Below, one piece after another: positions 34,848 to 57,946 of a stretch of DNA of 64,000 bases (position 1 is its first letter; each line of letters begins with the position of its first letter). This DNA comes from Rhodoferax sp. PAMC 29310. Lineage in GTDB: Bacteria > Pseudomonadota > Gammaproteobacteria > Burkholderiales > Burkholderiaceae_C. The DNA is taken from the NCBI RefSeq assembly GCF_017948265.1, contig NZ_CP072852.1, positions 372,001-436,000 of the forward strand, read 5' to 3'. The position numbers and the translations under genes were made by a program. The notes beneath the pieces were generated by a model that saw only the letters and a program-made list of their open reading frames with translations, had not been told where the DNA came from and made no database searches.

Positions 34848-35663
34848 CTAGACGCGCTCAAACACCACATCCCACACCCCATGGCCGAGCTTGATGCCAC
34901 GGTTTTCAAACTTGGTGAGAGGGCGGTAGTGCGGCTTGGGTGCGTAGCCTGCCAATTCAGGATGGCTGCCGCTGGCAGTGTTTTTCAGCAAGGGCTCGGC
35001 GCTGAGCACTTCCAGAATCTGCTCGGCATAGGGCTGCCAGTCAGTGGCGCAGTGCAGGTAGCCGCCTACTTTCAGGCGTGCGGCCAGTTTGGCAATCAAG
35101 CCGGCTTGAATCAGGCGGCGCTTGTTGTGCTTCTTTTTGTGCCACGGATCAGGGAAAAAGATGTGCACGCCATCCAGGCTTTGCAGCAGCAGCATGTTGT
35201 CAATGACTTCCACCGCGTCGTGCGAGACGATGCGAATATTGCTCAGACTTTGTTCGCCAATGCGTTTGAGCAGGGCGCCCACGCCGGGTTCATGTACTTC
35301 GCAGCACAAGAAGTTTTTCTCAGGCATGACGCCAGCGATGTGGGCGGTGGCTTCGCCCATGCCAAAGCCAATTTCCAGAATGACGGGTGCATTCCTTACA
35401 TCATTTTGGCCTCTGGCGCTTGCTGCATAAGCGTAAGCTGCTTCGAAATCAATAGCGTTTGGCTGGTAGGGCAACAGAAAAGTGGCGCCCAGCTCTTCAA
35501 ACGCTTTGGTCTGGCCGGTGGTGATGCGGCCAGCGCGGCGCACAAAGCTCTTGATTTCTTTGGGGTAGGCCACGCCCTCGGGCGCACTGCCCCGAATGCG
35601 AAGTTTTCGGGTGCCCGCGGGGGTTTCGGGCAGGGTGGGGTCGGTTGGATTTGTATCGTTCAC
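34848..35663 (-). CDS. trmB: tRNA (guanine-N7)-methyltransferase with a repeat-derived insert
   Basis: Methylates G46 of tRNA with SAM. A 271-aa Rossmann-fold enzyme: SAM motif [17 protein letters not shown], acidic partner [12 protein letters not shown], the [13 protein letters not shown] strand and the family signature [19 protein letters not shown]. Just before VILEIGFG, about 20 residues ([19 protein letters not shown]) are encoded by a copy of the dispersed repeat at 35401-35458; homologues I know are shorter here. The frame and fold are otherwise intact. The start overlaps the gluQ stop by ATGA, so the two are translationally coupled. Confidence 0.95.
35401..35458 (-). repeat. Dispersed short repeat, copy 5, inside trmB
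   Basis: Read on the minus strand: CGCTATTGATTTCGAAGCAG, then CTTACGCTTATGCAGCAAGC and GCCAGAGGCCAAAATGA. It carries the CTATTGA start, the GCTTACGCTTAT core and the GCCAGAGGCCAAA end of the repeat family. It is translated in frame within trmB. Confidence 0.6.
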
Positions 35664-36631
35664 GGTGCAGGATTGTAGAGAGGCGGGCCGTGCTTGCGCC
35701 AGTGTTGCGTCCAGGCACTCAAAGCGTTGCCCACTGTGCCACTTTGTTCAGACAGCCCCAGCACGTGGGCGGCGTGGTTGAGCGCGGCCAGTGGATCATG
35801 GGTGTCTAGCGCGGATGCGCCGTTTTGTTTGGAGAGTTTTTCGCCGTTGTCACCACACACCAAAGGCGTGTGCAGGTAGCGCGGGGTGGGCAGTGCAAGG
35901 GCTTGTTGCAGCGCAATTTGACGCGCGGTGTTGTCCGTCAGGTCTTCACCGCGAAGCACGTCGGTGATGCCCTGTTCGGCATCGTCCACCACCACGGCAA
36001 GTTGGTAGGCGTAGCAGCCATCGGCCCGCTTGAGCACGAAGTCGCCCACGGCGGTGGCCACGTTTTGCTGCTGGGGCCCCAGGCGCCGGTCTGTCCAATG
36101 AAGGGTGTTGATTGCTATTGAATAAATAGCTTCTTGTGCAGGTGGAATATGCGCTGGAGGGAGATTTTTCTTAGGAATATCGGTGCGCAGTCGCCAGGCT
36201 CTGGCTGATTTCTCTTTCAGCCCGTTGCGACAAGTCCCGGGGTAGATCAGCTCGCCGTGGCGCGCGCGCTCGTGTCCGCTTTCCAGCAAACCCGTTTCGA
36301 TCTCTTTGCGCGAACAGCCGCAGGGGTAGGCCAAGCCTTGTTGCACCAGGGTGTCGAGCGCGGCTTGGTAGAGCGCGCTGCGTTGGGATTGCCATACGGG
36401 GGGCTGGTCGGGCCGCAGCCCGCAGGCGCTGAGTTGTTGGAGGATGTGCTCGTCCATGCCCGGAAAGCAGCGCGGTGTGTCGACGTCTTCAATGCGCACC
36501 AGCCACAGCCCGTCATGGGCACGGGCATCCAGCCAACTGGCCAGCGCAGCCACCAAAGAGCCCGCATGCAGCGGGCCCGTGGGAGAGGGGGCAAAGCGGC
36601 CGATATAGCGGGCCGGTGGGGCAGTGCGCAT
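35660..36631 (-). CDS. gluQ: Glutamyl-Q tRNA(Asp) synthetase with a repeat-derived insert
   Basis: Transfers glutamate to queuosine in tRNA-Asp. A 323-aa truncated GluRS paralogue without anticodon domain: [21 protein letters not shown] with HIGH-like HAGS, zinc-site cysteines in [38 protein letters not shown], and a KMSKS-like KLSKQNGA. Between AWRLRTDIP and HWTDRRLG lie about 20 extra residues ([20 protein letters not shown]) encoded by the repeat at 36112-36172, read in reverse orientation. ATG 36631 is preferred over the GTG at 36652. Confidence 0.93.
36112..36172 (+). repeat. Dispersed short repeat, copy 6, inside gluQ (antisense)
   Basis: On the plus strand TTGCTATTGAATAAATAGCT, then TCTTGTGCAGG, then GCGCTGGAGGGAGATTTTTC. 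The 5' CTATTGAATAAATAG matches copy 4 almost base for base. gluQ reads through it on the opposite strand without a stop. Confidence 0.65.
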
Positions 36632-36691
36632 GGGGCGTGAAAAACGCGGCACAGGGCCGCGTCAGTGGTCAGTTTAAAAGAGTAGGGTCAA

Positions 36692-37759
36692 TCAGCAAAC
36701 CGCCAATGCGAGTTCAAGGCCGGATACAAAGGCGTCTTCAACCCGGTTGCCCAGGCACCAGTCGCCGCACAGGCCCACGCCTGTTTTGGCGTCCAACAGG
36801 TGGGTTTTTCCCAGAGGTTGAATGGTTTTGGCGTAGCTCCAGCGCTGCATGTCCTGGTGGCTGGGCTGGGCGCGAATACCGGTGACTTCGCCAAAGGCTT
36901 TGAGCAGCTTGGCCTGGACGCGGGGGGCGTCGTCGTTGAGGTGTTCCTGCGACCATGCGGCACTGGCCTGTACGGTCCAGCGCTCCACGCCGCCTCGGCC
37001 GGGCTTGGACGACTCACGGGCCAGCCAGGCGATGCGGTGGTGGGTGCTGCGCGCCGCATTCCATTGGGGCCCCAGCGTCGAAAAATCGGGCTGCATGGCT
37101 TGGGGAAAAGCGAGCATCAACGTCCAGCAGGGGGCAACTTGAACCTTGTCGATTTGCTTGCTCAGGTTCGCAACCAGTTTGGATTCCTGCAGCAGGGACT
37201 GAGACTGAGCGGCGGGCATCGCCAACAACACCGCGTCAAAGCCTGAGAACACATGTTGCTCGTCGGCCGGACCCTGCGTGTGAAGCTGCCACTGCTTGGC
37301 GTTGAGCGCATCCCGCGAAATACGGTTGACACGGCTGCCCAGCTCGACGGTTTGTTCGGTGATCAGGGGTTGTGCCCATCGGCGTGGCAAGGCCTTCATG
37401 CCGGGCGTGGCGACCCAATGGGCCTCGCTGGTGGGGCGGTCGGCCTGGGCGATGCGGCCCAAGTCATCCAGCACACGAATGGTGGTGGCACTCCATCGTT
37501 TGCAAACACCGGGCACAGTGTCCAAGGCCTGTTGAAAACGCGCATCGCGCACGGTGAAATACTGTGCACCGTGGTCAAACGTGCCAAAGGCACTGTCACG
37601 CGTCGCCATGCGACCGCCAACATCTCGGCTCTTTTCAAACACGGTCACTTTGTGTCCCGCTTGCGCCAGGGTTCGGGCGCAAACAATGCCCGCCATACCG
37701 GCGCCGACGACGGCAAAGTGCTTGATGCGGGTTTGTGGTTTGGATTTGGAAGTGCTCAT
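36692..37759 (-). CDS. FAD-dependent amine oxidase-like (renalase-type) protein
   Basis: A 355-aa flavoprotein. The N-terminal dinucleotide fold reads HFAVVGAGMAGIVCARTLAQAGHKVTVFEKSRDVGGRMATR, followed by the renalase-type FDHGAQYFTVRD. The C-terminal FAD-binding motif is GVGLCGDWCLGNRVEDAFVSGLELA. Such proteins oxidise amines or reduced nicotinamide isomers; the substrate here is unknown. ATG 37759 (MSTSKSKPQ) gives a normal start; the frame runs open to 37957 without support. It stands between gluQ and a LysR gene, all on the minus strand. Confidence 0.88.
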   Translation of the reverse strand: MSTSKSKPQTRIKHFAVVGAGMAGIVCARTLAQAGHKVTVFEKSRDVGGRMATRDSAFGTFDHGAQYFTVRDARFQQALDTVPGVCKRWSATTIRVLDDLGRIAQADRPTSEAHWVATPGMKALPRRWAQPLITEQTVELGSRVNRISRDALNAKQWQLHTQGPADEQHVFSGFDAVLLAMPAAQSQSLLQESKLVANLSKQIDKVQVAPCWTLMLAFPQAMQPDFSTLGPQWNAARSTHHRIAWLARESSKPGRGGVERWTVQASAAWSQEHLNDDAPRVQAKLLKAFGEVTGIRAQPSHQDMQRWSYAKTIQPLGKTHLLDAKTGVGLCGDWCLGNRVEDAFVSGLELALAVC

Positions 37760-37796
37760 GAAAGATGTCTCCAATTGTTGTTGTGCCACATGCACT

Positions 37797-38744
37797 TTAC
37801 ACGCCCCGGTGGTGGGCGAGCAAAGCGGCACGTGTGGTCGTACTTTCCAGCTGCGAGAGCCACCACTGCATGGCCCGTCCTTGACCCTGTTTTCCCGCGT
37901 CTCGCCAGGCGTAATGAATCGCCACCAAGCGATTGGTCCGCTCCACTTCTTTGACAACCAATCGGCCGGTTTCTACAAAGGGATTGGCCATGCAGTCCGG
38001 AACAAATCCTCCCCCCAGTCCGCGTACCTGCACGTCGATTTTGTCGTGCATGGTGGCCACAGTGAAAACGTCTTGCCCACCCAGGAGGCCAAAGGTCAAT
38101 CCACCCCCGCGGCTCACGGTGTCGGCCACGGCCACAGCACGGTGCTGGCGGATCAGTTCATCGCTCAGTGGCTCGGGCGCATTGGCCAAGGGGTGATGCG
38201 GCGCCACAGCATAGACAAAATTCACCTCTCCTAGCGGCTTGGTGCGAATGCTGGCATTGCTGCTACTGCCTGCCACCCCGATCGCCAAGTCTGCTTGTCC
38301 GGACGTCAGCGCCTCCAACGTCCCAGACAGCGTTTCGTCACGCAGTTTGATTCGCGTGGGCGGGTTGAGTGAAAAAAAACTGTCGCACAGCTCCATGAGG
38401 GTTGCTTTGGAGATGATGGTGTCCACGGAAATCGTCAGTTGCGACTCCCAACCTGTTGCCACACGTTTGACGCGGTTGGCGACCGCATCAATCTCGTCCA
38501 GCAGTCGGCTTCCTTCGTGCAGTAATTCCGCGCCGGCTCGAGTCAGTCGGGCTTGACGCGAGCTGCGGTCATACAGCAATACATCCAGCGCATCCTCGAT
38601 TTGGCGCACCCGGTAGGTGAGCGCGCTGGGAACTACCCCAAGCTCGCGGGCCGCACCAGCGAAGCTGCCCGTGCTGGCTATGATTTGGAGCATGGCCAAG
38701 GCGTCTGGGGTCAATACATCGCGAGGCGTTTGCATGGTTGGCAT
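37797..38744 (-). CDS. LysR-family transcriptional regulator
   Basis: A 315-aa LysR regulator. The N-terminal helix-turn-helix (LQIIASTGSFAGAARELGVVPSALTYRVRQIEDALDVLLYDRS) is followed by a periplasmic-binding-like effector domain. A second ATG at 38735 is possible. It is divergent from the pirin gene with a 113-bp gap, and the pirin and flavodoxin genes are the natural targets. A quinone or oxidative signal would fit those targets, but this is inference. Confidence 0.92.
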   Translation of the reverse strand: MPTMQTPRDVLTPDALAMLQIIASTGSFAGAARELGVVPSALTYRVRQIEDALDVLLYDRSSRQARLTRAGAELLHEGSRLLDEIDAVANRVKRVATGWESQLTISVDTIISKATLMELCDSFFSLNPPTRIKLRDETLSGTLEALTSGQADLAIGVAGSSSNASIRTKPLGEVNFVYAVAPHHPLANAPEPLSDELIRQHRAVAVADTVSRGGGLTFGLLGGQDVFTVATMHDKIDVQVRGLGGGFVPDCMANPFVETGRLVVKEVERTNRLVAIHYAWRDAGKQGQGRAMQWWLSQLESTTTRAALLAHHRGV

Positions 38745-38773
38745 TCATGAATTCGAATATTTTGAATGATGCC
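38740..38773. promoter_or_regulatory. AT-rich imperfect dyad between lysR and pirin genes
   Basis: GGCATTCA faces TGAATGATGCC across an AT-rich centre holding TTCGAA and ATATTTTGAA. It overlaps the LysR start, as LysR autoregulatory sites often do. The symmetry is imperfect, so confidence is low. Confidence 0.3.
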
Positions 38774-38857
38774 ATCAAACCGAATGGATTGCGAACAGGG
38801 CGCCCCGCCTTAAATTTGAGACATAGGTTCAGACCGTCGCAGACCAATAGGAATTCC

Positions 38858-39559
38858 ATGCTCACTCTTCGTAAATCCAAAGACCGCGGCTATGCAGACC
38901 ACGGCTGGCTGCAGTCTCAGCACAGCTTTTCGTTTGCCGAGTACTACGACCCCAAGTTCATGGGATGGGGCAACCTGCGGGTGATCAATGAGGACTGGAT
39001 CGCCGCCGGCAAAGGTTTTGGCACTCACGGCCACCGCGACATGGAGATCGTCACCTATGTGCTGGCCGGTTCCCTGGCGCACAAAGACAGCATGGGCAAC
39101 ATCAAGGCCATTCCGCCCGGAGATGTTCAACGCATGAGCGCGGGCACCGGTGTTCGTCACAGTGAGTTCAATCACGCACCCGATGCGACCACCCATTTGC
39201 TGCAGATCTGGATTGAGCCCAACGTCACCGGCGTGGAGCCCAGCTACGAACAAAAATCCTTTGCCGATTCAGAGAAGCAGGGTGTATTGCGGCTGGTTGC
39301 CTCGCAGGACGGTGACCGAGGCTCTGTGACATTGAATGCGGATGCCCGCTTGTACGCGGGTTTGTTGGATGGAGCGCAAACGGCCACACTGGCTTTGGAT
39401 CGGACACGCAAGAGCTATGTGCACCTGGTGCGAGGTGAGTTGAGCGTGAACGGCACGGCGTTGACCACCGGCGACGCAGCCTTGATAGAAGGCGAGTCTG
39501 AACTCACTTTGAACCAGGGCAAGGATGCCGAGGTGCTGGTGTTTGATCTCACCGCCTGA
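38858..39559 (+). CDS. Pirin-family bicupin protein (YhhW-like)
   Basis: A 233-aa pirin with two cupin domains. The N-terminal metal site is visible in GFGTHGHRDMEIVTYVLAGSLAHKDSMGN and SAGTGVRHSEFNH (His/His/His/Glu), as in YhhW-type quercetinases. The start MLTLRKSKDRGYADHGWLQSQHSFSFAEYYDP is typical. The C-terminal cupin lacks obvious metal ligands. Biological substrates of such pirins are mostly unknown; flavonol dioxygenase activity is documented for some. A flavodoxin-fold gene follows 90 bp downstream. Confidence 0.92.
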   Translation: MLTLRKSKDRGYADHGWLQSQHSFSFAEYYDPKFMGWGNLRVINEDWIAAGKGFGTHGHRDMEIVTYVLAGSLAHKDSMGNIKAIPPGDVQRMSAGTGVRHSEFNHAPDATTHLLQIWIEPNVTGVEPSYEQKSFADSEKQGVLRLVASQDGDRGSVTLNADARLYAGLLDGAQTATLALDRTRKSYVHLVRGELSVNGTALTTGDAALIEGESELTLNQGKDAEVLVFDLTA

Positions 39560-39649
39560 GCAAACGTTTCAACACAATATTTTTAGTTCCCGCGAGCTTG
39601 CACGGCAGGCTCAACCTTTTTACCTTTACTTCAGAAAACGAGTATTCAC

Positions 39650-40198
39650 ATGGCAAAGACAGCAGTTGTATTTCATTCCGGTTACGGCCACACCCAACGC
39701 GTCGCCCAGTTTGTGGCGGACGGCGCCAATGCCGAGCTGATCACCATTGACGCCGATGGCAACATCACTGATGCGGACTGGGCCACATTGGACGCAGCTG
39801 ACGCGATCATTTTTGGTTCACCCACCTACATGGGCATGGCCTCTTGGCAGTTCAAGAAGTTTGCCGATGCCACCTCCAAGCGCTGGTTCACTAGCGCCTG
39901 GAAAGACAAAGTGGCCGGTGGCTTTACTATTTCTGCCAGCCCCAGTGGCGACAAGTTGTCCACCATCCAGTACTTCATCACCTTGGCCATGCAGCAAGGC
40001 ATGATTTGGGTGGGTCAACCGGCATTGAATGACGGCACCATCAACCGCATTGGTTCTAACTCCGGCTTGATGGCTCAAGTGGGTCCTACCAGCCCGGCAG
40101 CCGATATTCCTCAAGGTGACCTGGATACGGCCAAGGCCTACGGCCAGCGCGTGGCCGAGTTCGCCGCCCGGTTGGTGCAGGTCGAAGAACTGGCCTGA
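39650..40198 (+). CDS. Flavodoxin-fold NAD(P)H:quinone oxidoreductase-like protein
   Basis: A 182-aa flavoprotein of the NADPH-dependent FMN reductase/WrbA-like group. The FMN phosphate loop is FHSGYGHTQRVAQ, with FGSPTYMGMASWQFKKF binding the isoalloxazine and GGFTISASPSGDKLSTI closing the pocket. It would reduce quinones by two electrons and limit oxidative stress. With the LysR regulator and pirin upstream it forms a small group often seen together. It ends before a stem-loop facing the convergent trhO. Confidence 0.9.
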   Translation: MAKTAVVFHSGYGHTQRVAQFVADGANAELITIDADGNITDADWATLDAADAIIFGSPTYMGMASWQFKKFADATSKRWFTSAWKDKVAGGFTISASPSGDKLSTIQYFITLAMQQGMIWVGQPALNDGTINRIGSNSGLMAQVGPTSPAADIPQGDLDTAKAYGQRVAEFAARLVQVEELA

Positions 40199-40209
40199 CC
40201 GGTTAGAGG

Positions 40210-40231
40210 GCGGGCCATTCATTTGGCCCGC
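40210..40231. terminator. Stem-loop between convergent flavodoxin and trhO genes
   Basis: GCGGGCCA-TTCATT-TGGCCCGC: eight pairs with a six-base loop, followed by TAGTTTATT. It is a likely terminator in the plus direction and may serve both genes, whose stops lie 11 and 4 bp away. Confidence 0.7.
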
Positions 40232-40235
40232 TAGT

Positions 40236-40988
40236 TTATTGATTCGCAGGGCTGGGTTGGACGATCGACAGGTCGGCATCCAGCGCCCGGCGCTCATCAA
40301 ACACAAAGCAGCCGCCGCGGTAGTGGCTGCCGTCTGTTTCCTCAAAGTACTTGAGAATGCCGCCCTCGAGCTGGTACACATGGTCCAGCCCGGCCTCCTG
40401 CATCAGGATGGCAGCTTTTTCGCAGCGAATTCCCCCCGTGCAAAAACTCACCACGGTCTTGCCCGCAAGGTCGGCCCGGTGGTCCAGAAACGCTTGCGAA
40501 AACTCTGTGAATTTGTCAATGCGCCAGTCAATGGCGCCCTCAAACGTGCCCTGATCGACTTCGAATGCGTTGCGGGTGTCCAGTGTTACGACCGGACGAC
40601 CCTCATCATCGACCCCTGCGTCCAGCCAGCGTTTGACCGTTTGCGGTGTGACTGCCGGCGCGCGACCGCTGGACGGGCGAATAGCCGGATGGTTCATGCG
40701 GATGATCTCGCCTTTGACCTTGACCAGCATTTTTTTGAAGGGCTGGTCGGCCGACCAGCTCTCTTTGGGGTTCACGTCGGAAAATCGCGCATCTGCCTGC
40801 AATTCAGTCACGAAACCGCGAACCGCATCGGCGTCGCCAGCCAGAAACAGGTTAATGCCTTCCTCGGCCAAAAGAATGGTGCCCTTGAGTTCACGAGAGA
40901 TGGCGCGCTCAAAGAGCGTCTCTCGCAGCTCCTGCGCATCGGCAATCGGGACGAATTTGTAGGCGGAAATGTTCAGAATGTTGTTCAC
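40236..40988 (-). CDS. trhO: tRNA uridine(34) hydroxylase (rhodanese family)
   Basis: A 250-aa YceA/TrhO-type protein that hydroxylates U34 of tRNA using oxygen, on the way to mo5U/cmo5U. The N-terminal domain reads ILNISAYKFVPIADAQELRETLFERAISRELKGTILLAEEGINLFLAG. The central rhodanese domain has VTLDTRNAFEVDQGTFEGAI and the active-site cysteine loop SFCTGGIRCEKAA (second Cys catalytic). The C-terminal QLEGGILKYFEETDG is typical. It appears to be a single-gene unit. Confidence 0.93.
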   Translation of the reverse strand: MNNILNISAYKFVPIADAQELRETLFERAISRELKGTILLAEEGINLFLAGDADAVRGFVTELQADARFSDVNPKESWSADQPFKKMLVKVKGEIIRMNHPAIRPSSGRAPAVTPQTVKRWLDAGVDDEGRPVVTLDTRNAFEVDQGTFEGAIDWRIDKFTEFSQAFLDHRADLAGKTVVSFCTGGIRCEKAAILMQEAGLDHVYQLEGGILKYFEETDGSHYRGGCFVFDERRALDADLSIVQPSPANQ

Positions 40989-41111
40989 CCACTGATTTTA
41001 GGCAGTCAGTCGGGCTTAAGTGGGCGCTTTGGTCCTCAACAGGGAGGAAATAGCGAGTTGGCAAGGCAAAATGAGGCCATGGGAGCCCATAAAAATACCA
41101 AGGTCACACCA

Positions 41112-43064
41112 ATGAATCGTTCCGTGTTTCTGTCCATCGTTTTGGGGTGGGCTGGGTCTGTTTGCGCCCAAATGCCGGACGCACTGTCAGAGAAAGACTT
41201 TTTCACTGAGATGCCGATCGTGCTGTCTGTGTCGCGCCTGCCGCAGCGGCTGGACGACACACCGGGGGCAGTCACCATTCTGGATCGAGACATGATTCGT
41301 CTGTCAGGTGCGCGCGATGTCGCAGACCTGCTGCGCTTGGTGCCCGGGTTTCAGACCAGCAGCTCCTTTGAAACCGGGGCGCCGGTGGCCAGTTATCACG
41401 GCGGCTTTGACAGCTACTCGGCACGAATCCAAGTTTTGGTGGACGGGCGCTCAACCTATTCACCATTTCTTTTTGGCGGCGTCGGTCCAGGTTTGCAGGC
41501 GGTGGCGTTGCAGGACATTGAGCGCATCGAGGTTCTGCGGGGTTCCAATTCCGCGGCCTATGGTGCGCGGGCGATGTTGGGGGTGATCAACATCGTGACT
41601 CGGCACACTTTGGACACCCAGGGTGCGCAAGCGTCCGTCGGGGCGGGGGAAAACGGTGTTCGTGACGTTCAAGCCCGCATCGGCTGGGGCACAGCCCAAG
41701 CCAGCTATCGTCTGACGGTTGACCGTCGGGCGGATGAGGGGTTGGCAGGCTCCAACGGACACAACGCAATCAGCCGGGTGAACCTGAGAGCTGATCTAAG
41801 AGCCTCAGCTCAAGATGAGTTTCAATTCAGGGCGGGCACCTTGTCAATTGACGCTGGCAAAGGATTTGCCGGACGTGCCAATGATCCGCGTCGCGACCGC
41901 TATTTCGGCTCCGGGTTTGCGCAGCTTGACTGGCGCCGAACGCTGAATAAAAACGAAGATGTGGCGCTGACGGTATCTCACACGGAAGAGTCCCACCGGG
42001 ATAATTTCCTCTTGTCGCTTCAGCCCTATGGGTACAGCAGCAACGTGGTCGTTGACTTTGGCGGGCGTGCCACCAACGATTCATTGATGGTGCAGCACAC
42101 TTGGCGTGCCAGCCCCGCTTGGAGCTTTGTGTGGGGGGGCGAGTTGCGACGTGAAGAAGTCGAGTCCAAGCCACTCTATGGCACGGGCACCCCTTTTGTG
42201 ACCAATTTCACTCGACTGTTCGGAAACGCGGAATGGAAGTTTCTGGACGACTTTGTTCTGAACTCTGGCGCCATGCTGGAATACAGCTCAGCAAGCGAGG
42301 AGACGTTTGCGCCTCGGGTTATGTTGAACTGGCATTTGGCGCCGGGTCATACCCTGCGTGCCGGAATATCCAAGGCCTACCGCCCACCCAGCACCTATGA
42401 GAAATTCGGCAACACCCGCTACTACTTCAGTGGTCAAACCTTGGCGGTGATCACGGCGTCACGGGGAAACATCGACGCAGAGAGCCTGGTGACCCGCGAA
42501 TTGGGATATCTGGCGAGCTTGCCTCGCCTTGGACTGGAGCTTGATGTGCGCGCCTTTGAGGAGCGTATCAGGGGCTTTGTCCGGCAGGTGTCCTACTCCT
42601 TGCCCGCCGGCTCCTCGCTGCTCAACACTAAAGCACTGGACTATGTCAATAGCGAGGATTTCACCATTCAGGGAGTCGAATACCAGCTTGGCTGGCGTCC
42701 TTGGCGCGACGCGAAACTTGTTCTGGGGCAAGCCTTTACAGATGTTCGCTCCAGGGACCCAGGCTCTGCCAAGGCGGCTCCACAAAGTGCGACGACGTTG
42801 ATGCTGACGCAGCGCCTTTCGGGGGGCATCGATCTGAGTTTGATGCATCAGAACAGCAGCACGGTGACGCCACAGGGCGCCGGAATTGCCAGTGCCCGCG
42901 CGATGATGCGAACTGACCTGCGCTTGGGAATTCCCATGCGTTGGGGCCGCCAGAAAGGCGAAGTTGCATTGGTCGTTCAAAACCTGGGGTTACCTTTCAT
43001 GGAGTTTGACAATCTTTTTCGCTTTGAGCGGCGCGCTTTTGTCACGCTGCGCATAGAGAACTAA
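41112..43064 (+). CDS. TonB-dependent outer-membrane receptor
   Basis: A 650-aa receptor. A signal peptide (SVFLSIVLGWAGSVCAQ) is followed by a plug domain (RLPQRLDDTPGAVTILDRDMIRLSGARDVADLLRLVPGF, DIERIEVLRGSNSAAYGARAMLGVINIVTR) and a 22-strand barrel. The barrel includes TLRAGISKAYRPPSTYEKFGNTRYY. There is no N-terminal STN signalling domain. The frame is open upstream to 40116 but only ATG 41112 gives a signal sequence. It leads a gene set with a periplasmic protein (16 bp downstream) and a hybrid kinase, suggesting ligand uptake coupled to sensing. The C-terminus ends RIEN instead of the common aromatic residue. Confidence 0.92.
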   Translation: MNRSVFLSIVLGWAGSVCAQMPDALSEKDFFTEMPIVLSVSRLPQRLDDTPGAVTILDRDMIRLSGARDVADLLRLVPGFQTSSSFETGAPVASYHGGFDSYSARIQVLVDGRSTYSPFLFGGVGPGLQAVALQDIERIEVLRGSNSAAYGARAMLGVINIVTRHTLDTQGAQASVGAGENGVRDVQARIGWGTAQASYRLTVDRRADEGLAGSNGHNAISRVNLRADLRASAQDEFQFRAGTLSIDAGKGFAGRANDPRRDRYFGSGFAQLDWRRTLNKNEDVALTVSHTEESHRDNFLLSLQPYGYSSNVVVDFGGRATNDSLMVQHTWRASPAWSFVWGGELRREEVESKPLYGTGTPFVTNFTRLFGNAEWKFLDDFVLNSGAMLEYSSASEETFAPRVMLNWHLAPGHTLRAGISKAYRPPSTYEKFGNTRYYFSGQTLAVITASRGNIDAESLVTRELGYLASLPRLGLELDVRAFEERIRGFVRQVSYSLPAGSSLLNTKALDYVNSEDFTIQGVEYQLGWRPWRDAKLVLGQAFTDVRSRDPGSAKAAPQSATTLMLTQRLSGGIDLSLMHQNSSTVTPQGAGIASARAMMRTDLRLGIPMRWGRQKGEVALVVQNLGLPFMEFDNLFRFERRAFVTLRIEN

Positions 43065-43080
43065 GCTCAACTCAAAACAG

Positions 43081-46573: not shown

Positions 46574-46607
46574 AATAAGTCCCCTTGTGCTTTCTACAAT
46601 GGTGGCT

Positions 46608-50168: not shown

Positions 50169-50176
50169 AATAAACC

Positions 50177-50228
50177 TGAAGCCTAGATTAGGCCTTCGTG
50201 AGTAGCTATAAATAATGTAGCTACTCAC
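50177..50228 (-). repeat. Dispersed short repeat, copy 7, with strong stem-loop after dnaE
   Basis: GTGAGTAGCTA (50198-50208) and TAGCTACTCAC (50218-50228) form a perfect 11-bp stem around TAAATAATG. A smaller dyad, GAAGCCTA-GAT-TAGGCCTTC, lies just before it. On the minus strand the order TTATTTATAGCTACTCACG matches the repeat family. It sits between convergent dnaE and tolA and may end both transcripts, although no T run follows. Confidence 0.6.
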
Positions 50229-50281
50229 ACAGGTGATTCGGTCAACCCGGCCGGCGCATCTGCTGTTCCCAGCCCTGTGGA

Positions 50282-51232
50282 TCAGTCCTTGGGCCTAAAG
50301 CTGATAACCAAGGCCGCCGGCACTTGCCCATTGGTGTCACGGGGCAGAGTCTCTGTTTTGTCGATGGCACGCAGCACCGCCTCATCCCAAGAAGTCACCC
50401 CGCTGGATTTGATGATTTTCCGGCTGATGATGGTGCCATCCGGTGAGGTGCGCACATCCACTTCGGTGACTGGATTGCTGTTGATGTCTTCGGTGAAAAC
50501 AATATTGGGCTTGATGCGGGCACGAATGCGGCCAGCGTATCCTGATGAAGGGCCGGACGACTGCAAGTCTTTTCCCGTGGCGTTGGCAGCACCTGTGGCG
50601 CCAGCCAGACCGGCCATGCGCTTCAGGTTGGCCTGGCGTTGGGCCTCCATTCGTTTGGCGTCTTCCTTTGCTTCCAGTGCGGCCTTGCGCTCAAGTTCCA
50701 CTGCCTTTTGCCTCTTCTCGTCGGCGAGTTTCTTTTCTTGCTCGCGCTTTTCCTGCAATTTCTGTTCCTGTAGCTTCTTCTCCTGCAGTTTCTTTTCAAT
50801 CAGTTCTTTTTCCCGAGCCAGCTTCTCGTTCTTCAGTTTTTCCAGACGTTGCTTCTCGAGTAGCAGCTCTTTCTCTGCTTCTTTTTTAAGTAAGAGTTTC
50901 TCCTTCTCCAGTGCGATGTCCGCCTCGGACACTTTGGGTGGCTCGGGCTCTGTTTTCGGCGCTGGGGGAGTGGGTGGCGGGGGCGGTGTGACTTTTTCCG
51001 GCTCGGGTTGCGGCTCAGGCGCGACACCAGCGCGTTGAGGTGCAGCCTCTTTTGGTACCGCTGACCAAAGCTCGGCATCGACCGAAATCGTTTGGGGCTG
51101 GCTCTTCCAGTGAACGCCCCAGGTCAGCGCTGCGACGAGGAGCAGGTGGGCCAACAAGGCGAGCCCAAGCGCTCGACCAAAACCGGGTGGCGTGGGCGGA
51201 GTAAATTCCAGACGATCCGAGGCGGCGATCAT
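50282..51232 (-). CDS. tolA: TolA cell-envelope protein
   Basis: The periplasm-spanning link of the Tol-Pal system. A 316-aa protein with one N-terminal helix (ALGLALLAHLLLVAALTWGVHW), a Pro-rich stretch, and a long Lys/Glu coiled coil (about residues 105-215, with repeated KKLQEQKLQEKREQ units). The C-terminal TonB-like domain (YAGRIRARIKPNIVF through VPAALVISFRPKD) contacts colicins, Pal and TolB. A GTG at 51241 overlapping the tolR stop is an alternative start. It is the last gene of the ybgC-tolQRA run; tolB and pal are not in the window. Confidence 0.93.
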   Translation of the reverse strand: MIAASDRLEFTPPTPPGFGRALGLALLAHLLLVAALTWGVHWKSQPQTISVDAELWSAVPKEAAPQRAGVAPEPQPEPEKVTPPPPPTPPAPKTEPEPPKVSEADIALEKEKLLLKKEAEKELLLEKQRLEKLKNEKLAREKELIEKKLQEKKLQEQKLQEKREQEKKLADEKRQKAVELERKAALEAKEDAKRMEAQRQANLKRMAGLAGATGAANATGKDLQSSGPSSGYAGRIRARIKPNIVFTEDINSNPVTEVDVRTSPDGTIISRKIIKSSGVTSWDEAVLRAIDKTETLPRDTNGQVPAALVISFRPKD

Positions 51233-51240
51233 GTCTTGCA

Positions 51241-51660
51241 CTAATTCACCAGTTGAACGGACAGGCCAACGCGTTGGACGCCTGCGCGCTGCAGGGTGTC
51301 CATGACTTTGACCACGGTCTCGTATTTGATGTTTTTGTCGGCACTGATGACGACTGCCGAGTTCTCTGAGTTGCTTTGGGCTTGCTTGACAGCAGCGACT
51401 AGCTCCTTGAGCGCAATGGAGCTGGTTTGGTCCTTGATCTTCATCTCGATCGAGTCGTTTTTGTCCAGGATCAGCTGAATGACCTGATCAGGCTGCTTGG
51501 CGCCCTTGCCGACGCTGGGCAGGTCAATCATGCTGGGGGAGATCATGGGCGCGGTCACCATGAATATGATCAACAACACCAACATCACATCGATGAAGGG
51601 CACCATATTGATCTCGTTGATGGTGCGGCGACCCCGTCCTCGGCTGACCATAGATGGCAT
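51241..51660 (-). CDS. tolR: TolR/ExbD-type protein
   Basis: A 139-aa protein with one membrane helix carrying the key Asp (NEINMVPFIDVMLVLLIIFMVTAPM) and a periplasmic domain (VVISADKNIKYETVVKVMDTLQRAGVQRVGLSVQ). With TolQ it forms the proton-driven motor that energises TolA during envelope constriction. ATG 51660 (MPSMVSRGRGRRT) is chosen; the frame upstream lies inside tolQ. It is 13 bp downstream of tolQ. Confidence 0.95.
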   Translation of the reverse strand: MPSMVSRGRGRRTINEINMVPFIDVMLVLLIIFMVTAPMISPSMIDLPSVGKGAKQPDQVIQLILDKNDSIEMKIKDQTSSIALKELVAAVKQAQSNSENSAVVISADKNIKYETVVKVMDTLQRAGVQRVGLSVQLVN

Positions 51661-51673
51661 GACTGGACTCCTC

Positions 51674-52366
51674 TCAGTGGCCGGAGGCGGACTGCGCGCC
51701 GACATTGCGCTGCAGGATGTTGGAAAACTCTTCCATGAAAGTTTCCAGTCGAATGGCAATGCGGTCAATATCGCGTGCAAAGCGGTTGTAGGCGACCACT
51801 GCCGGAATTGCGGCGAACAGACCAATGGCCGTTGCGACCAGCGCCTCTGCAATGCCCGGTGCCACACTGGCCAAAGTCACAGTTTGCAAGGAGGCCAAGC
51901 CAGTAAACGCATGCATGATGCCCCAAACGGTACCAAACAAGCCCACATAGGGCGATACCGAACCGACGGACGCGAGAAACGACAGGTTGGTCTCAACGAC
52001 ATCCATTTCACGTTGAAAACTGGCGCGCATGGCGCGGCGGGCGCCGTCCATCAAGGATGCGGTGTCCGTGATGCGTTTTTCGCGCAGTTTTTGGTATTCG
52101 CGCATGCCGCTGGCAAAAATACGTTCTTGCGGGCCCGAATCGCGGGAGTTTTGAGAGGCCGCGGCAAACAGATCGTTCAGGTTGGTGCCCGACCAGAACT
52201 CGCGCTCAAATACGTCGTTGATGGCTTTAACTCGCTTCAAAGCGATCAGCTTGCGGAAAATGGCTGCCCAACTGGTGATGGACACCACCATCAGTAGCAG
52301 CATGACCAATTGCACGACCAGGCTGGCGTTCAGGACCAGGTGAAGGATCGACATGTCTTGGTTCAT
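51674..52366 (-). CDS. tolQ: TolQ/ExbB-type motor protein
   Basis: A 230-aa membrane protein with three helices: SLVVQLVMLLLMVVSITSWAAIF, then SVGSVSPYVGLFGTVWGIMHAF and VAPGIAEALVATAIGLFAAIPAVVAYN. The MotA/TolQ signature GTVWGI and EALVATAIGL are clear. It builds the stator-like channel of the Tol system with TolR. The start overlaps ybgC by ATGA. Confidence 0.96.
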   Translation of the reverse strand: MNQDMSILHLVLNASLVVQLVMLLLMVVSITSWAAIFRKLIALKRVKAINDVFEREFWSGTNLNDLFAAASQNSRDSGPQERIFASGMREYQKLREKRITDTASLMDGARRAMRASFQREMDVVETNLSFLASVGSVSPYVGLFGTVWGIMHAFTGLASLQTVTLASVAPGIAEALVATAIGLFAAIPAVVAYNRFARDIDRIAIRLETFMEEFSNILQRNVGAQSASGH

Positions 52367-52791
52367 CGAAGGGCATCCAATAAAGTTGAGGGAATTCTTG
52401 CAGGTTGGTGGCTGACGGCGTTGATCCAGCCGACACGCACGGTGGCCTCACACAAAAGGGTTGTGTCAGTGCCATTTTTTAACAGCGCTTGCTGCTGAAT
52501 GGTCATGGACGCGCGGCCAATCTCTATGGGTTGCGCTGTCACGATCAATTCGTCGTCCAGTCTGGCCGAGCGGTGATAGCGCAACTGGGCTTCACTGACG
52601 ACAAAAATACCGCCATTTTCCTCGCGAAGGCGGCGTTGTTCAACACCTCGTCCACGCAACCATTCGGTGCGGGCCCGCTCGAAAAACTTGAGGTAGTTGG
52701 CGTAGAACACAATGCCGCCGGCATCGGTGTCCTCCCAGTACACCCGAACAGGCCAGGCGAAAGCGGCTGAAAGAACTGGGGTGGAGTTCAT
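52363..52791 (-). CDS. ybgC: YbgC-type acyl-CoA thioesterase
   Basis: A 142-aa hotdog-fold thioesterase with the YbgC active-site Asp in VYWEDTDAGGIVFYANYLKFFERARTEWLR. It commonly precedes tolQRA, as here, and is linked to phospholipid metabolism at the envelope. It overlaps both neighbours by 4 bp, so the aminotransferase, ybgC and tolQ genes are translated from one message. Confidence 0.94.
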   Translation of the reverse strand: MNSTPVLSAAFAWPVRVYWEDTDAGGIVFYANYLKFFERARTEWLRGRGVEQRRLREENGGIFVVSEAQLRYHRSARLDDELIVTAQPIEIGRASMTIQQQALLKNGTDTTLLCEATVRVGWINAVSHQPARIPSTLLDALR

Positions 52792-53972
52792 GCCAAAAAC
52801 GCTTTCAGTCGGTCAATAGCCTGATGCAGGTGGGTCATCGAACTCGCGGTGGAAAACCGGATATACCGTTCAGTATCTGCCGTCCCGAAGTCACGACCTG
52901 GTGTCACGGCAACGTGCGCCTTGTTCATGATCTCAAACGACAGATCCCAGCTGTCCTTGATGCCCAGCTTCTCACAGGCCGCGCTGCAGTCGGCCCAGGC
53001 GTAAAAAGCGCCATCGGGCATCACTGGCACCGTCAAGCCCAGTGCGTTCAGCGCGGGAATAAAGTAGTCGCGGCGGGCCTTGAACTCGGCGCGCCGGCGC
53101 TCGTATTCTGCGATGCTTTCCGCCTCAAAACAGGCCAGAGCGGCGTGTTGTGCAATGGTGCTGGGGCAAATAAACAGGTTTTGGGCCAGCCGTTCAATCA
53201 CAGGGACGATACGCTGCGGCACCACCATCCAGCCCAGACGCCAGCCCGTCATATTGAAGTATTTGCTGAAGCTATTGATGCTGATGATGTCTTCATCCAG
53301 CGCCAGAGCCGTTTGTCCGTACTGGGAGTCGTGGCTCAGGCCGAGGTAAATCTCGTCAATGATCGTGACGCCACCTTTGCCGCTCACCACCGAGTGAATG
53401 CGGCGTAACTCGTCCGGGTGAATCGAGGTGCCTGTCGGGTTGGAGGGCGAGGCCAGCAACACGCCGCGCGTCGCGTCGGTCCAGGCCGACTCGACCTTGT
53501 CAGCACTCAGTTGAAACCGTTCGGCTGCCGTTGCCGGAACCAACACGGCACGGCCGTCGGCCGCACTCACAAAATGCCGGTTGCAGGGGTAGCTTGGGTC
53601 CGGCATCAGTATCTCGTCGCCTGACTCAATCAACGCCAAGCAAGCCATCTGCAAGGCCGCCGATGCGCCTGCTGTGACCACAATGCGGTTGGCAGCCACT
53701 TCCACGTTGAACCGCTGTCGGTACCAATCACTGATGCGCTCACGCAATTCCAGCAAACCGGTGGCCTGGGTGTATTGCGTCCGTCCGTCATGAATGGCTT
53801 TTGAGGCTGCCGCTTGAACAAGGGGCGGGGCGGTGAAATCTGGCTCGCCAATGTTCAGAAAAATCATTGGCGATTCAGAGTGCGCCACCTCAGCGGCCAG
53901 CTTGGCGGCCGCTTTGGCCACCTCCATCACGTAGAACGGCTCGATGCGCTGAGCTCGCCCGGAAATTCTCAT
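52788..53972 (-). CDS. PLP-dependent class I aminotransferase
   Basis: A 394-aa fold-type-I aminotransferase. Visible are [58 protein letters not shown] and the PLP lysine in [20 protein letters not shown], then IRFSTASSM with the carboxylate-binding Arg. The group includes aspartate, tyrosine and N-succinyl-diaminopimelate aminotransferase-like enzymes; the substrate is not assigned. It sits between nusB and ybgC with 4-bp overlaps on both sides. Confidence 0.9.
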
Positions 53973-54502
53973 GAGCGGGGGTTGCCCCGATCCGCATTGA
54001 CCTCGGCGGCGCGCAGGCTTGGGGCCAAGCCGTTCAGCACCGCATTCACGTACTTGTGACCGTCAGTTCCGCCAAATTCCTTGGCCAACTCGATGCACTC
54101 GTTCAAAACGACACGCCATGGCACGTCCAGGCAATGCTTGAATTCATAGGCTCCAATCCACATCACAGCGTGTTCGATGGGGGAAATCTCTTCCATCTTG
54201 CGGTCAAGCAAGGGCAAGATGAGGGCGTCAAGCACGTTAGCCTCGTCGGTGCAACCGTGCAGCAACGCATCAAAATGGACCGAATCGCATTTGGAGAATC
54301 CAGCCAAATCGCGGGTGAATACATCGATGTCGGTGATGCCGTTCTTGCCCACTAAACGCTGGTACAAGGCCTGCAGAGCAAATTCGCGAGCGCGAGAACG
54401 ATCAGACTTGCTGCCGGCCTTGCGGGCACCCGTGCTGGTCACACCCGTGCGGGCTTGCCGGGGAGGGCGCGTGGCCGCTGGCTTGGGGGTGAATTCGCTC
54501 AT
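53969..54502 (-). CDS. nusB: Transcription antitermination protein NusB
   Basis: A 177-aa NusB with a basic N-terminal extension ([18 protein letters not shown]) before the conserved [20 protein letters not shown]. The C-terminal part has [63 protein letters not shown]. It forms the BoxA-binding complex with NusE for rRNA antitermination. Its start overlaps the ribH stop by one base. Confidence 0.95.
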
Positions 54503-54975
54503 TAGATTTCTTCCAGTAAATTGGCCATTTCAACGGCAACACGGGCGGCATCACGCCCCTTTTCAGTCTGCCGTGCAATGGCCTGGTCCATGTTCTCGAC
54601 AGTGAGAATGGCATTGGCAATGGGCAATTGGTAATCCAGGCCCACCCGTGTCACGGCGGCGCCGGATTCGTTGGCAACCAACTCGAAATGATAAGTCTCG
54701 CCACGAATGATGCACCCCAGCGCTATCAGGGCATCGTATTTCAGCTTTTCGGCCATCGCCATCAAAACGACGGGGACCTCCAAGGCGCCTGGCACCTGAA
54801 CCAGGTCAATGTGCTTCTCCTGCACACCCAGTGCCAACAACTCGGCCTTGCAAGCCGCTGCGAGCGCGTTGGTGACGGGCTCGTTGAAGCGGGCCTGAAC
54901 AATGCCAATGGTTAATTTTTTGCCACTCAAGCGGGTATCTGCGGAATCCAAAGTTCCTTTGTCTGCGCCAAACAT
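54502..54975 (-). CDS. ribH: 6,7-dimethyl-8-ribityllumazine synthase
   Basis: A 157-aa lumazine synthase joining 3,4-dihydroxybutanone-4-phosphate and the pyrimidine intermediate. Visible are [91 protein letters not shown] with the catalytic His. It is 15 bp after ribBX in the same direction. Confidence 0.96.
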
Positions 54976-54990
54976 GGTGCTGTCCTTCTT

Positions 54991-56106
54991 TTATTGGGTG
55001 ATGTAGCCGGTGATTTCCAGCCCGTAGCCAGCCATGCTGGGCATGCGACGCGGCGTGCCCATCAAGTTCATTTTGTGCACGCCGCATTCGCGAAGAATCT
55101 GGGCGCCGATGCCATAGGTGCGCAAGTCCATGCGGCCGCGCTCGGGTCCATGGCTGGCGCGCGCCGTGCCGTCAAACTGGGCCAGTAATTGCTCGGCGCT
55201 TTCCCCGCAGTTCAGGAACACCACGACGCCGCTTCCCTCAGATGCAACACGTGTCAAGGAGGCGTCCAGGCTCCAAGAGTGCATCGCGCGGCCAACTTCC
55301 AATGCGTCGAGCACGGATAGGGGTTCATGCACGCGGGCCAAAACTGTGTCGTCCGGTCCCCAGGTGCCTTTGACGAGCGCCAGGTGCACCCCTCTTGCCG
55401 TTTTGTCTCTGAAGGCGTGGACCCTGAACTCGCCAAATGCGGTGTTGAGTGGGCGTGACCCCAGTTTCTCGACCAGAGATTCGGTGCGGGCTCTGTATTC
55501 AATCAGGTCGACGATGGTGCCAATCTTCAGTCCGTGTTCTGCCGCAAACAATTGGAGATCAGGCAGGCGGGCCATGGTGCCATCATCCTTCATGATCTCG
55601 CAAATGACGGACGCGGGCGAGCAGCCAGCCATAACCGCCAAGTCACAACCCGCCTCGGTGTGGCCAGCGCGCATCAACACCCCACCCTCAACGGCCTGCA
55701 GCGGGAAAATGTGGCCTGGTTGAACCAGGTCATTGGCAGTGGCGTTCTTGGCAACGGCCGCCTCGATCGTGCGGGCGCGGTCAGCGGCAGAGATGCCGGT
55801 CGTGACGCCTTCGGCCGCTTCAATGGACACGGTGAACGCCGTGCCTTTTTTATCGCCATTGCGCACGGTCATTGGCGGCAGTTGCAGGCGCTCACAACGC
55901 TCTTTGCTGAGAGTGAGGCAAATTAATCCTCGGCCATAGCGGGCCATGAAGTTTATGGCGTCTGCCGTGACATGGTCAGCCGCCAGAACGAGATCACCTT
56001 CGTTTTCGCGGTCTTCTTCGTCCACCAATATGACAATGCGACCCGCGCGCATGTCCGCCACAATTTCTTCAACCGGCGAAATCGCCACGGGAGTGAGGGA
56101 GCTCAT
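54991..56106 (-). CDS. ribBX: DHBP synthase with degenerate GTP cyclohydrolase II domain (RibBX type)
   Basis: A 371-aa bifunctional-looking protein. The N-terminal RibB domain is complete ([59 protein letters not shown]). It makes 3,4-dihydroxy-2-butanone-4-phosphate from ribulose-5-phosphate. The C-terminal RibA-like half lacks the three zinc cysteines: after [17 protein letters not shown] there is no Cys-rich loop, and the catalytic region is altered. This matches the RibBX variant reported in proteobacteria, so a separate RibA must exist elsewhere. The domain may instead be regulatory. It is 37 bp after ribE. Confidence 0.9.
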
Positions 56107-56143
56107 ACGGAAATCTTTCTAGGATTTAAAGTCGATTAGGGCC

Positions 56144-56788
56144 TTAAGGCGCCAAGTTGTTGAGGGTGGGTGCCTCGGCGCTGAGCATGCGCTCAACATA
56201 CCGTGCAATTAAATCGATTTCCAGGTTGACCAGAGAACCGTTACGCAAGTTGCCTAGAGCGGTGTTTTGCACGGTATGGGGAATCAGGTTAATGCTGAAC
56301 TCGCAACCGGCAGTCACGTCGTCAATCCTGTTGACGGTCAAGCTGACGCCGTTGATGGTGATTGATCCTTTATAGGCCAAATACTTGGCGAGGCCTTTTG
56401 GGGCCAGCACCCGAAGTTGCCAGCTTTCACCAATTTCGGCGAAGTAAGTGACCTGGCCAATGCCATCTACATGGCCCGACACGATGTGCCCGCCCAAACG
56501 GTCATGAGCTCGCAGCGCCTTTTCCAGGTTGATGGCGCCGATTTGAGACAGTCCCGCTGTTTTGTCCAGGGATTCGGCAGAAATATCCACCGTGAACTGC
56601 TGCTGGCCCAAGTCCAGGGTGGTCGCAGTCATGCAGGCGCCATTGAGCGCGATGCTGTCGCCCAATCCGACGTCGTCAAGATAGGCGGGAGGGCATTCGA
56701 TCGTGAGTCGCTTGCCATGGGTTGAAGAGCTGCCTAGGGCGTGAACAGCGACGATGCGCCCCACGCCGGTAATGATTCCGGTAAACAT
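56144..56788 (-). CDS. ribE: Riboflavin synthase, alpha subunit
   Basis: A 214-aa riboflavin synthase with two lumazine-binding repeats. The start MFTGIITGVGRIVAVHALG, the motifs VGLGDSIALNGACMTAT and the second-half GSITINGVSLTVNRID, and the junction LRAHDRLGGHIVSGHVDGIGQV are diagnostic. It dismutates two lumazines to riboflavin. It follows ribD by 57 bp. No FMN riboswitch fits in the short gaps of this operon. Confidence 0.95.
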   Translation of the reverse strand: MFTGIITGVGRIVAVHALGSSSTHGKRLTIECPPAYLDDVGLGDSIALNGACMTATTLDLGQQQFTVDISAESLDKTAGLSQIGAINLEKALRAHDRLGGHIVSGHVDGIGQVTYFAEIGESWQLRVLAPKGLAKYLAYKGSITINGVSLTVNRIDDVTAGCEFSINLIPHTVQNTALGNLRNGSLVNLEIDLIARYVERMLSAEAPTLNNLAP

Positions 56789-56845
56789 CCCACTATTTTC
56801 GCAGGGAAAGTGGGCGGGATCGTGGTTGCCGTTAAAACTTGTCCT

Positions 56846-57946
56846 CTAGAAAGTGTCTCGGCCTTCAATTCGCGCCAAAATTCGCAGGTCAGGCCCCACC
56901 CTTTCAGTGGATAGAAAGTTCAGCGGCAGCGCATGTGCCAAGTCGGTTAACGGGCCAAATCCAGCCATTTCTCGCCCCTTGCCAATGATCTTCGGTGCGA
57001 GGTAGACCAGAAACTCGTCCACCAAATCCTCCCGCACCAAGGACGCATTGAGCTTCTCCCCTGCCTCTACATGCAGTTCATTCACTTCGCGACGTGCCAG
57101 GTCTTGCAACATCGCGGCAAGGTCGACCTTGCCTTCCGTGCCCGGCAGGTAAATGACCGTGGCACCCAGTGCCTCCAGTGCCGACTTTTTCTCATCATTT
57201 CGGCTTGCAGCGTATATAAATAGAGCGCGACCAGCTATAAAAAGGTGAGCATCAAGCGGCGTTTGAAGTCGGCTGTCCACAATCACCAGGTGAGGCTGCC
57301 TGGGTGTGTCCACCAAGCGCACGTCCAGGCGCGGGTTGTCTTCCAGCACCGTACCGATCCCGGTCAGAACGGCGCAGGCTCGCGCTCGCCATGCATGGCC
57401 ATCGGCGCGGGACGGTGCGGATGTGATCCATTGGCTCACACCGTTCTCCAGCGCCGTTTTTCCGTCGAGTGAGGCCGCTATCTTCATTCGAACCCACGGG
57501 GTCTGCCGAATCATTCGGCTGAAAAAACCAATGTTTAATTCTCGAGATTCGTGTGCCCCGGGGCCAACAATCACTTCCACGCCAGCTGCGCGCAATCGGT
57601 CGAAACCTTGTCCTGATACCCGTGGGTTGGGGTCTGCAATGGCGGCGACGACCTTTTTGATACCTGCGGCAATCAGCGCGTCGCAGCACGGTCCGGTTCG
57701 ACCTTGGTGAGAGCAGGGCTCCAACGTGACATAGGCGGTGGCGCCGACAACGGAGTGCCCAAGAGCCTCGGCATCGCGCAACGCCATGACTTCGGCATGG
57801 GGGCCGCCGGCTTTTTGGGTGTGCCCACGAGCCAATAGGTGGCCGTCACTGGATGTAATGACACAACCGACTCGTGGATTGGGATTGGACAGCCAAAGTG
57901 CCTCTGATGCGTGAGACAGACTGCTGCCCATGATGTCTAAGGTCAT
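56846..57946 (-). CDS. ribD: Bifunctional riboflavin deaminase/reductase RibD
   Basis: A 366-aa two-domain enzyme. The N-terminal deaminase has zinc ligands in GGPHAEVMALRDA and LEPCSHQGRTGPCCDALI. The C-terminal reductase has RMKIAASLDGKTALENGVSQWITS and LHVEAGEKLNASLV. It performs the second and third steps from GTP. A copy of the dispersed repeat (57198-57245) encodes the stretch LFIAGRALFIYAASRND in the reductase domain. ATG 57946 is preferred over the TTG at 57964. The gene lies 45 bp after the FimT-like pseudopilin gene. Confidence 0.94.
   Translation of the reverse strand: MTLDIMGSSLSHASEALWLSNPNPRVGCVITSSDGHLLARGHTQKAGGPHAEVMALRDAEALGHSVVGATAYVTLEPCSHQGRTGPCCDALIAAGIKKVVAAIADPNPRVSGQGFDRLRAAGVEVIVGPGAHESRELNIGFFSRMIRQTPWVRMKIAASLDGKTALENGVSQWITSAPSRADGHAWRARACAVLTGIGTVLEDNPRLDVRLVDTPRQPHLVIVDSRLQTPLDAHLFIAGRALFIYAASRNDEKKSALEALGATVIYLPGTEGKVDLAAMLQDLARREVNELHVEAGEKLNASLVREDLVDEFLVYLAPKIIGKGREMAGFGPLTDLAHALPLNFLSTERVGPDLRILARIEGRDTF
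57198..57245 (-). repeat. Dispersed short repeat, copy 8, inside ribD
   Basis: Minus strand: TTTTTATAGCTGGTCGCGCT, then CTATTTATATACGCTGCAAG and CCGAAATGA. It shares ATAGCTG, CGCGCT and the end GCAAGCCGAAATGA with copy 5 (GCAAGC then CAAAATGA). It is degenerate compared with the intergenic copies and is translated in frame. Confidence 0.45.

Follow-up and report, generated by a model that had tools for sequence, protein, structure and literature searches.

The 64,000-nucleotide stretch of the Rhodoferax sp. PAMC 29310 genome analyzed here (NZ_CP072852.1, positions 372,001 to 436,000; hereafter the window) contains eight copies of a dispersed repeat, three of them inside the genes trmB, gluQ and ribD. 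We consider, with a probability of roughly 0.6, that these copies are members of a family of AT-rich, degenerate DNA recognition sites of about 65 base pairs (bp), numbering about 465 in the genome and retained at the level of the DNA both between and inside housekeeping genes. The family itself is real and larger than first claimed, and in three genes (gluQ, trmB and glmU) the constraint was demonstrated to act on the DNA. From this constraint we infer a sequence-specific partner that would read the motif and be the cause of its retention.

In order to detect copies, we trained an oriented profile on 30 copies from the genome, of which five (19992, 22505, 30807, trmB and gluQ) lie in the window, and iterated it over three rounds on an 800 kb sample of the same genome, taken as 20 kb stretches at 40 evenly spaced places, with the reversed sample as a control. 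The number of matches at 10 bits or more was 70 in round one and 81 in round three, against none in the reversed sample in either; the first-round count is the less circular of the two, because sample matches of at least 15 bits entered the later rounds. Extrapolation from the sample gives about 465 copies per genome, at a density of about one per 10 kb. A model built from the eight window copies by sequence only returned at least 150 scored matches out of 1215 candidates in the 4,593,249-base genome (worst E 8e-4), with seven of the eight window copies, all except that of ribD, among the matches listed. A 28-base pattern allowing up to three mismatches occurred at nine places and its backward control at none. 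In the window exactly eight matches reached 20 bits with the third-round profile, including the untrained copies at 1593, at 50177 and in ribD. These are the eight related copies that the first-pass annotation had reported, each found where it had been placed; the three genic copies lie in intact frames and, also as described, the gluQ copy is oriented opposite to the trmB copy, the latter being on the strand of its own gene and the former antisense. The copies and the genes that carry them are as follows:

1586..1622, plus strand: copy between genes, left half only (profile columns 8-44), 21.3 bits, outside the training set
19985..20052, plus strand: copy between genes, with a counterpart at the same place in genome G073, 36.5 bits
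22502..22567, plus strand: copy between genes, with a G073 counterpart placed by a single flank, 35.7 bits
30803..30872, plus strand: copy between genes, with a G073 counterpart placed by a single flank, 42.8 bits
34848..35663, minus strand: trmB, tRNA (guanine-N7-)-methyltransferase, 271 aa
35396..35461, minus strand: copy in trmB, read on the gene's strand, net gain of about 11 codons, 37.1 bits
35660..36652, minus strand: gluQ, glutamyl-Q tRNA(Asp) synthetase, 330 aa in the listed frame
36109..36176, plus strand: copy in gluQ, read antisense, net gain of about 21 codons, 39.8 bits
50158..50227, minus strand: copy between genes, 29.8 bits, outside the training set
56846..57964, minus strand: ribD, bifunctional deaminase/reductase of riboflavin synthesis, 372 aa in the listed frame
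57187..57257, minus strand: copy in ribD, read on the gene's strand, no net codon gain, 24.8-26 bits, outside the training set

To separate constraint on the DNA from constraint on the peptide, wobble positions of orthologous genes were compared with 49 non-genic copies, the genes being aligned to the motif profile itself; the orthologues were chosen by segment length only for gluQ (38 genes) and trmB (23), and by the GHG block for glmU (15). Information at wobble columns tracks that of the non-genic copies in all three genes (rho 0.67 for gluQ, 0.59 for trmB and 0.52 for glmU; pooled rho 0.61, p 6.5e-7, 56 columns), with means of 1.26-1.36 bits at high-information columns and 0.46-0.54 at low ones. 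As wobble positions follow the non-genic profile, the constraint bears on the DNA and not on the peptide. In gluQ, wobble column 27 is invariant in the 31 aligned genes out of 31, and the codon concerned is GCT in the 29 genes selected by score, a codon that makes up 11.6% of alanine codons outside the insert, while the low-information codons of the insert vary freely. Between genes, four copies compared with their G073 counterparts were identical at 76 of 94 high-information columns and at 35 of 85 low-information columns, these four pairs being the only ones compared and one of them being anchored on both sides. It is highly improbable, on these data, that the inserted peptides are functional in their proteins and were selected as such. 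The trmB segment does occur, with variation, in the 120 closest TrmB homologues among the matches listed, and that of gluQ in nearly all of the 120 listed, as such a function would lead one to expect; wobble positions constrained like non-genic copies, freely varying low-information codons and the existence of clear empty gluQ sites all speak against it.

The motif is degenerate, about 65 bp long and 44% GC (about 69 profile columns). The 55 strong copies align without gaps over 69 columns, and in 34 of the 88 copies found at 10 bits or more in 864 kb the core is interrupted by a gap, a count that includes truncated copies. Over these 88 copies some columns are nearly fixed (C and T at 14-15 in 98%, AGC at 27-29 in 97-99%, G at 37 in 91%), column 25 is A in 76%, and columns 44, 45, 62, 68 and 70 are nearly random; conserved columns are spread across the roughly 65 positions, with no short core of 9-11 bp. 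Covariation is strongest between neighbouring columns, AA/TT and TG/CA alternatives being at the top. Fixed columns, neighbours that exchange AA/TT or TG/CA and random columns together suggest a clade-specific partner, whether a protein or a process, that would read the motif on the double helix. Alternatively, the family could be a non-autonomous mobile repeat, similar to Rickettsia palindromic elements (RPE), to miniature inverted-repeat transposable elements or to REPINs (doublets of repetitive extragenic palindromic sequences, REPs), perhaps moved by the single transposase of the REP-associated tyrosine transposase (RAYT) type, captured in frame and then drifting. We regard this as unlikely, and the analysis had already weakened it. 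Across 195 copies, many of which come from stretches chosen for containing matches, the consensus frequency per column extends from 0.30 to 0.99 (standard deviation 0.19), a range that even drift cannot yield: simulated even decay with a score cut gave columns between 0.44 and 0.74 (standard deviation 0.03-0.04). The same columns are retained at wobble sites and in non-genic orthologues, which likewise argues against drift. Mean pairwise identity among copies is 0.536, against 0.511 with shuffled columns, so that the copies are nearly independent of one another.

No base pairing was detected: RNAalifold gave no pairs for the 55 copies, candidate pairing columns in the 88 copies did no better than expected, and Rfam had no match in the window at the gathering threshold. 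With no covarying pairs and no Rfam match in the window, a role as an RNA or single-strand hairpin was set aside; the missing hairpin also counts against a mobile palindrome. A strand or origin-terminus signal was rejected as well, the copies being spread along the chromosome on both strands (48 plus, 40 minus) with no switch at the GC skew, as judged by eye. The copy at 50177, unlike most, includes a near-perfect inverted repeat at about 50198-50228 (GTGAGTAGCTA / TAGCTACTCAC), for which a hairpin function may be considered. Some 60-80 bp past the half copy at 1593, at about 1686-1700, lies a short run of TAAG units (TAAGTAAGTAAGTA).

Many copies are genic. Taking as such those inside an open reading frame (ORF) that has 100 codons or more and extends 15 codons or more beyond the copy on each side, 34 of the 88 copies lie in ORFs. 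They occupy 32 distinct ORFs, 30 of which were scanned and 20 of which contain a Pfam family; adding gluQ and ribD, whose Pfam families were precomputed, gives 22 supported genes with 23 copies in total, or about 120 such copies per genome if the sample is typical. The remaining 10 scanned ORFs have no Pfam family and may be spurious. Named by interpretation of their Pfam matches, the 20 genes are folC, nadE, dnaG, moeA (two copies), a nitrite/sulfite reductase, xseA, lpxK, an asparaginase, polA, a DAHP synthase (the copy may precede the true start of the gene), an APH-family gene, glmU, an acyl-CoA dehydrogenase, a GST, a SpoU methylase, an epimerase, a urate-oxidase-like gene, metG, a nitrate reductase delta subunit and trmB. 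Of the 23 Pfam-supported copies, 17 (11 in the sense and 6 in the antisense orientation) use one frame per strand, compared with an expectation of one third (p 8e-5), and the favoured frames hold 25 of the 34 ORF copies. Relative to the gene, 17 of the 23 supported copies have the same strand and 6 the opposite one (p 0.035). Stop codons were ruled out as the sole reason for the choice of frame by other stop-free frames in 42 full-length non-ORF copies: the favoured frame is free of stops in 14 of these (forward) and 18 (reverse), and another reverse frame is so in 15 and another forward frame in 8. The xseA copy (L138:4740-4807), which scores 46 bits, is read in a disfavoured frame and has TACC instead of the nearly invariant TAGC; since TAG would terminate translation in that frame, the break in the motif seems to have been imposed by the protein. 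A single 470-codon ORF (L170:7513-8925) carries two copies in opposite orientations; it has no Pfam or NCBIfam match, and to our eye it resembles imuB.

How copies came to lie within genes differs from gene to gene. About 20 extra residues had been claimed at first for both TrmB and GluQ, which is correct for gluQ, with a net gain of about 21 codons, and too much for trmB, where the gain is about 11 residues. The gluQ site lies between the WRLRT and HWxDRRLG blocks, which are separated by 8-9 residues at 12 of 60 loci and by exactly 30 at 14, and filled sites occur in Rhodoferax, Polaromonas, Acidovorax, Giesbergeria and others. On the gluQ tree, 34 of 60 rows have the insert by length, a label that also takes in long variants without the motif; the distribution needs 11 changes, at least five of them forced by supported branches, and the insert may have been gained once and then lost repeatedly, or gained several times. 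In xseA the gap relative to the solved chain 8txr_A is about 23 residues. At the trmB site, 13 of 79 loci score at least 11 bits, and the copy's left portion coincides with native sequence. The gain in glmU is 7 residues relative to 5vmk_A, the left part of the copy being the native GHGA stretch; the glmU of genome G064 has a 45-bit copy and is two codons longer than three copy-free relatives, and other relatives of the same length also lack the copy. The first-pass annotation had itself named conservation of the same residues in distant orthologues as grounds for refuting its reading, and this applies in part, the matches in trmB and glmU partly overlapping native residues. In metG the linker is motif-like, with a small and variable change in length. 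The best TrmB match among named genomes is in a Rhodoferax metagenome-assembled genome, at 93% identity. Among the trmB sequences, a record titled as an Akkermansia muciniphila metagenome-assembled genome (L076) contains a Comamonadaceae-like gene with 70% identity and is probably a mixed or mislabelled bin.

For ribD, the proposed capture did not hold: the segment adds no residues relative to the 119 relatives listed, nor relative to solved chains. Alignment of orthologues brought out empty and filled sites in gluQ and no insertion in ribD. The match in ribD could be native sequence whose likeness to the motif is due to chance or to a shared codon pattern, a doubtful but not negligible explanation. 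It agrees with the unchanged length and with relatives that have similar residues and no DNA match (L174 none, L173 8.9 bits). On the other side, the copy reached 24.8 bits over almost the whole model without having been used for training, compared with no control match of 10 bits or more in a reversed control that does not preserve codon structure; DNA at the same place scores 32.8 bits in genome G039 and 20.3 bits in G023; and the copy sits in an AT-rich patch (0.44, against 0.56 for the locus). In the AT-rich relative G031 (L201), ribD has extra residues at the same place, with 10 bits, and the site may accept insertions elsewhere. If the motif is a retained DNA site, some copies would come into genes by insertion of about 63-69 bp (gluQ, xseA) and others would leave the net length of the gene unchanged or nearly so (glmU, metG, ribD); genes would retain them where they can be translated, mostly in one frame per strand, and the encoded peptides would be by-products.

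Several observations weigh against retention as a recognition site, and some of them favour a mobile repeat instead. The wobble alignment was fitted to the motif, 7 of the 38 gluQ genes were unaligned at core columns, and orthologues share ancestry. The clean gains in gluQ and xseA are real insertions, and copies therefore are or were mobile in some manner. Nine of 18,915 copy pairs exceed the top identity of five column shuffles, reaching 0.91, so that some copying happens. The Y1_Tnp (RAYT-type) gene, present once in the genome, was found in 20 of 21 motif-rich genera and in 27 of 39 others (p 0.023), and motif-rich genera cluster on the Y1_Tnp tree (7 changes, where shuffling gave 13.6 on average), a clustering that may mirror species ancestry. 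Within the genome we noted two near-identical pairs, 4245506/4266718 (0.91) and 3018854/3022041 (0.84), and a region (1604328-1605776) with three copies inside 1.5 kb; together they hint at occasional local copying. The Y1_Tnp gene was nevertheless rejected as a local centre of copies: its own locus has none, and 20 such loci of about 4.3 kb in motif-bearing genomes contain 7, near the genome average. This absence of concentration, and the lack of any length gain in ribD, do not suit a mobile repeat, and capture of a palindromic repeat accounts for only part of the pattern.

As far as sampled, the motif looks confined to the family of this organism, and within it the distribution is patchy. 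In an order-wide draw of 120 genomes, our genome and one family relative had at least 42 matches each, one genome of another family had a single match and another relative of the same family had none. Under stricter filters, 60 genera of the family comprised 21 with at least 14 matches (15 of them with at least 84), 7 with 1-6 and 32 with none. No match was found in the phage sequences searched; among plasmids, three records matched with one query and one with an earlier query, all from genera that we take to belong to Comamonadaceae. With no phage match and few plasmid matches, carriage by phages or plasmids was set aside.

A special case of a retained DNA site is that the motif acts as a DNA uptake signal that biased uptake and recombination would spread and maintain; it would be similar to the DNA uptake sequences (DUS) or uptake signal sequences of other bacteria, only longer. 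We advance this tentatively, by analogy. The many copies in core genes and between genes, in both orientations, the gene-strand bias of 17 to 6 and the constraint at the DNA level would all suit such a signal. Verminephrobacter is described as naturally transformable, foreign DNA competing to a limited extent and no signal being known, and some Acidovorax as competent (PMC4212676). The length of about 65 bp, compared with 9-11 bp in known signals (PMC4212676), and the density of about one copy per 10 kb fit less well. Acidovorax temperans, moreover, gave no transformation with DNA from other Acidovorax species, which a shared signal alone would not predict and which homology may explain. Pilins of the ComP_DUS family are present in 58 of the 60 family genomes, one of them adjoining ribD, as an uptake signal might require; their presence was rejected as a discriminating factor, as it does not separate motif-rich genera (20 of 21) from the others (38 of 39; p 1). 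In the window, two prepilin-like ORFs adjoin ribD, both on the minus strand: 57992-58585, with weak GspH similarity, and 58573-59100, which contains the best ComP_DUS match of the genome (G000:C1:430651-430968, 48 bits). A ComP_DUS match adjoins ribD in several other genomes too. The next ORF (59064-63977, minus strand; 1637 codons) has no NCBIfam match and, we presume, resembles pilY1.

No description of the repeat appeared among the matches listed in searches of the open-access PMC literature, which included consensus words. A long DNA site kept through protein-coding genes means that, in a large bacterial family, something besides protein function shapes synonymous sites and parts of the proteins. 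The motif is a concrete candidate for the signal behind the selective DNA uptake reported in this family, or for a new chromosome-wide nucleoprotein site. It could conceivably be the missing signal of Comamonadaceae for DNA uptake or another form of self-recognition, read in part through DNA shape and spread by molecular drive, an idea by analogy to which we give limited credence. Were it true, a signal that biases DNA uptake and recombination would be written into perhaps a hundred housekeeping genes per genome, and protein segments would have been added or reshaped as a side effect of self-recognition. A caution also follows, namely that a repeat lying in frame and taken for captured selfish DNA may still function as a DNA site.

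Among known systems, RPE measure 105-146 bp and form long stem-loops; they occur between genes and also, in frame, within conserved genes, where their peptides are tolerated (PMC2229807). The present repeat resembles them in being dispersed, with in-frame copies in conserved genes (23 of 88 in Pfam-supported genes), and is unlike them in its length of about 65 bp, its zero covarying pairs, its DNA-level constraint and its occurrence in another bacterial class. The likeness to RPE proposed by the first-pass annotation consequently stands for a dispersed family in intact frames; it fails on base pairing, on ribD, which has no insertion, and on what is kept, the DNA rather than the peptide. The beta-proteobacterial repeat element (BRE) is known from Bordetella and Comamonadaceae, with some copies in coding sequences (PMC3110155), and to that extent is comparable. 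Its published description as 75-91 bp long, 69% GC and often tandem in Bordetella, with 4 copies in Rhodoferax ferrireducens (PMC3110155), sets it apart from the family of about 465 copies of about 65 bp and 44% GC described here, and on GC content and copy number we rejected it as the same element. REP and REPIN sequences reach high copy number and some lie in genes, including DNA repair genes (PMC3733652); REPs are palindromes of 20-40 bp with a GTAG or CGTC tag. High copy number, some genic copies and a single Y1_Tnp gene in the genome recall REPIN with their RAYT. The motif differs from them in having no GTAG/CGTC tag or hairpin (column 25 being A in 76%) and a transposase gene that is not flanked by copies. 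The uptake sequences of Neisseria and Pasteurellaceae, finally, occur in hundreds of genic and non-genic copies with an orientation bias in reading frames (PMC2346458). The repeat shares with them its hundreds of dispersed copies in and between genes, its orientation bias and its constraint at the DNA level, and departs from them in that conserved columns run throughout some 65 bp rather than 9-11 bp.

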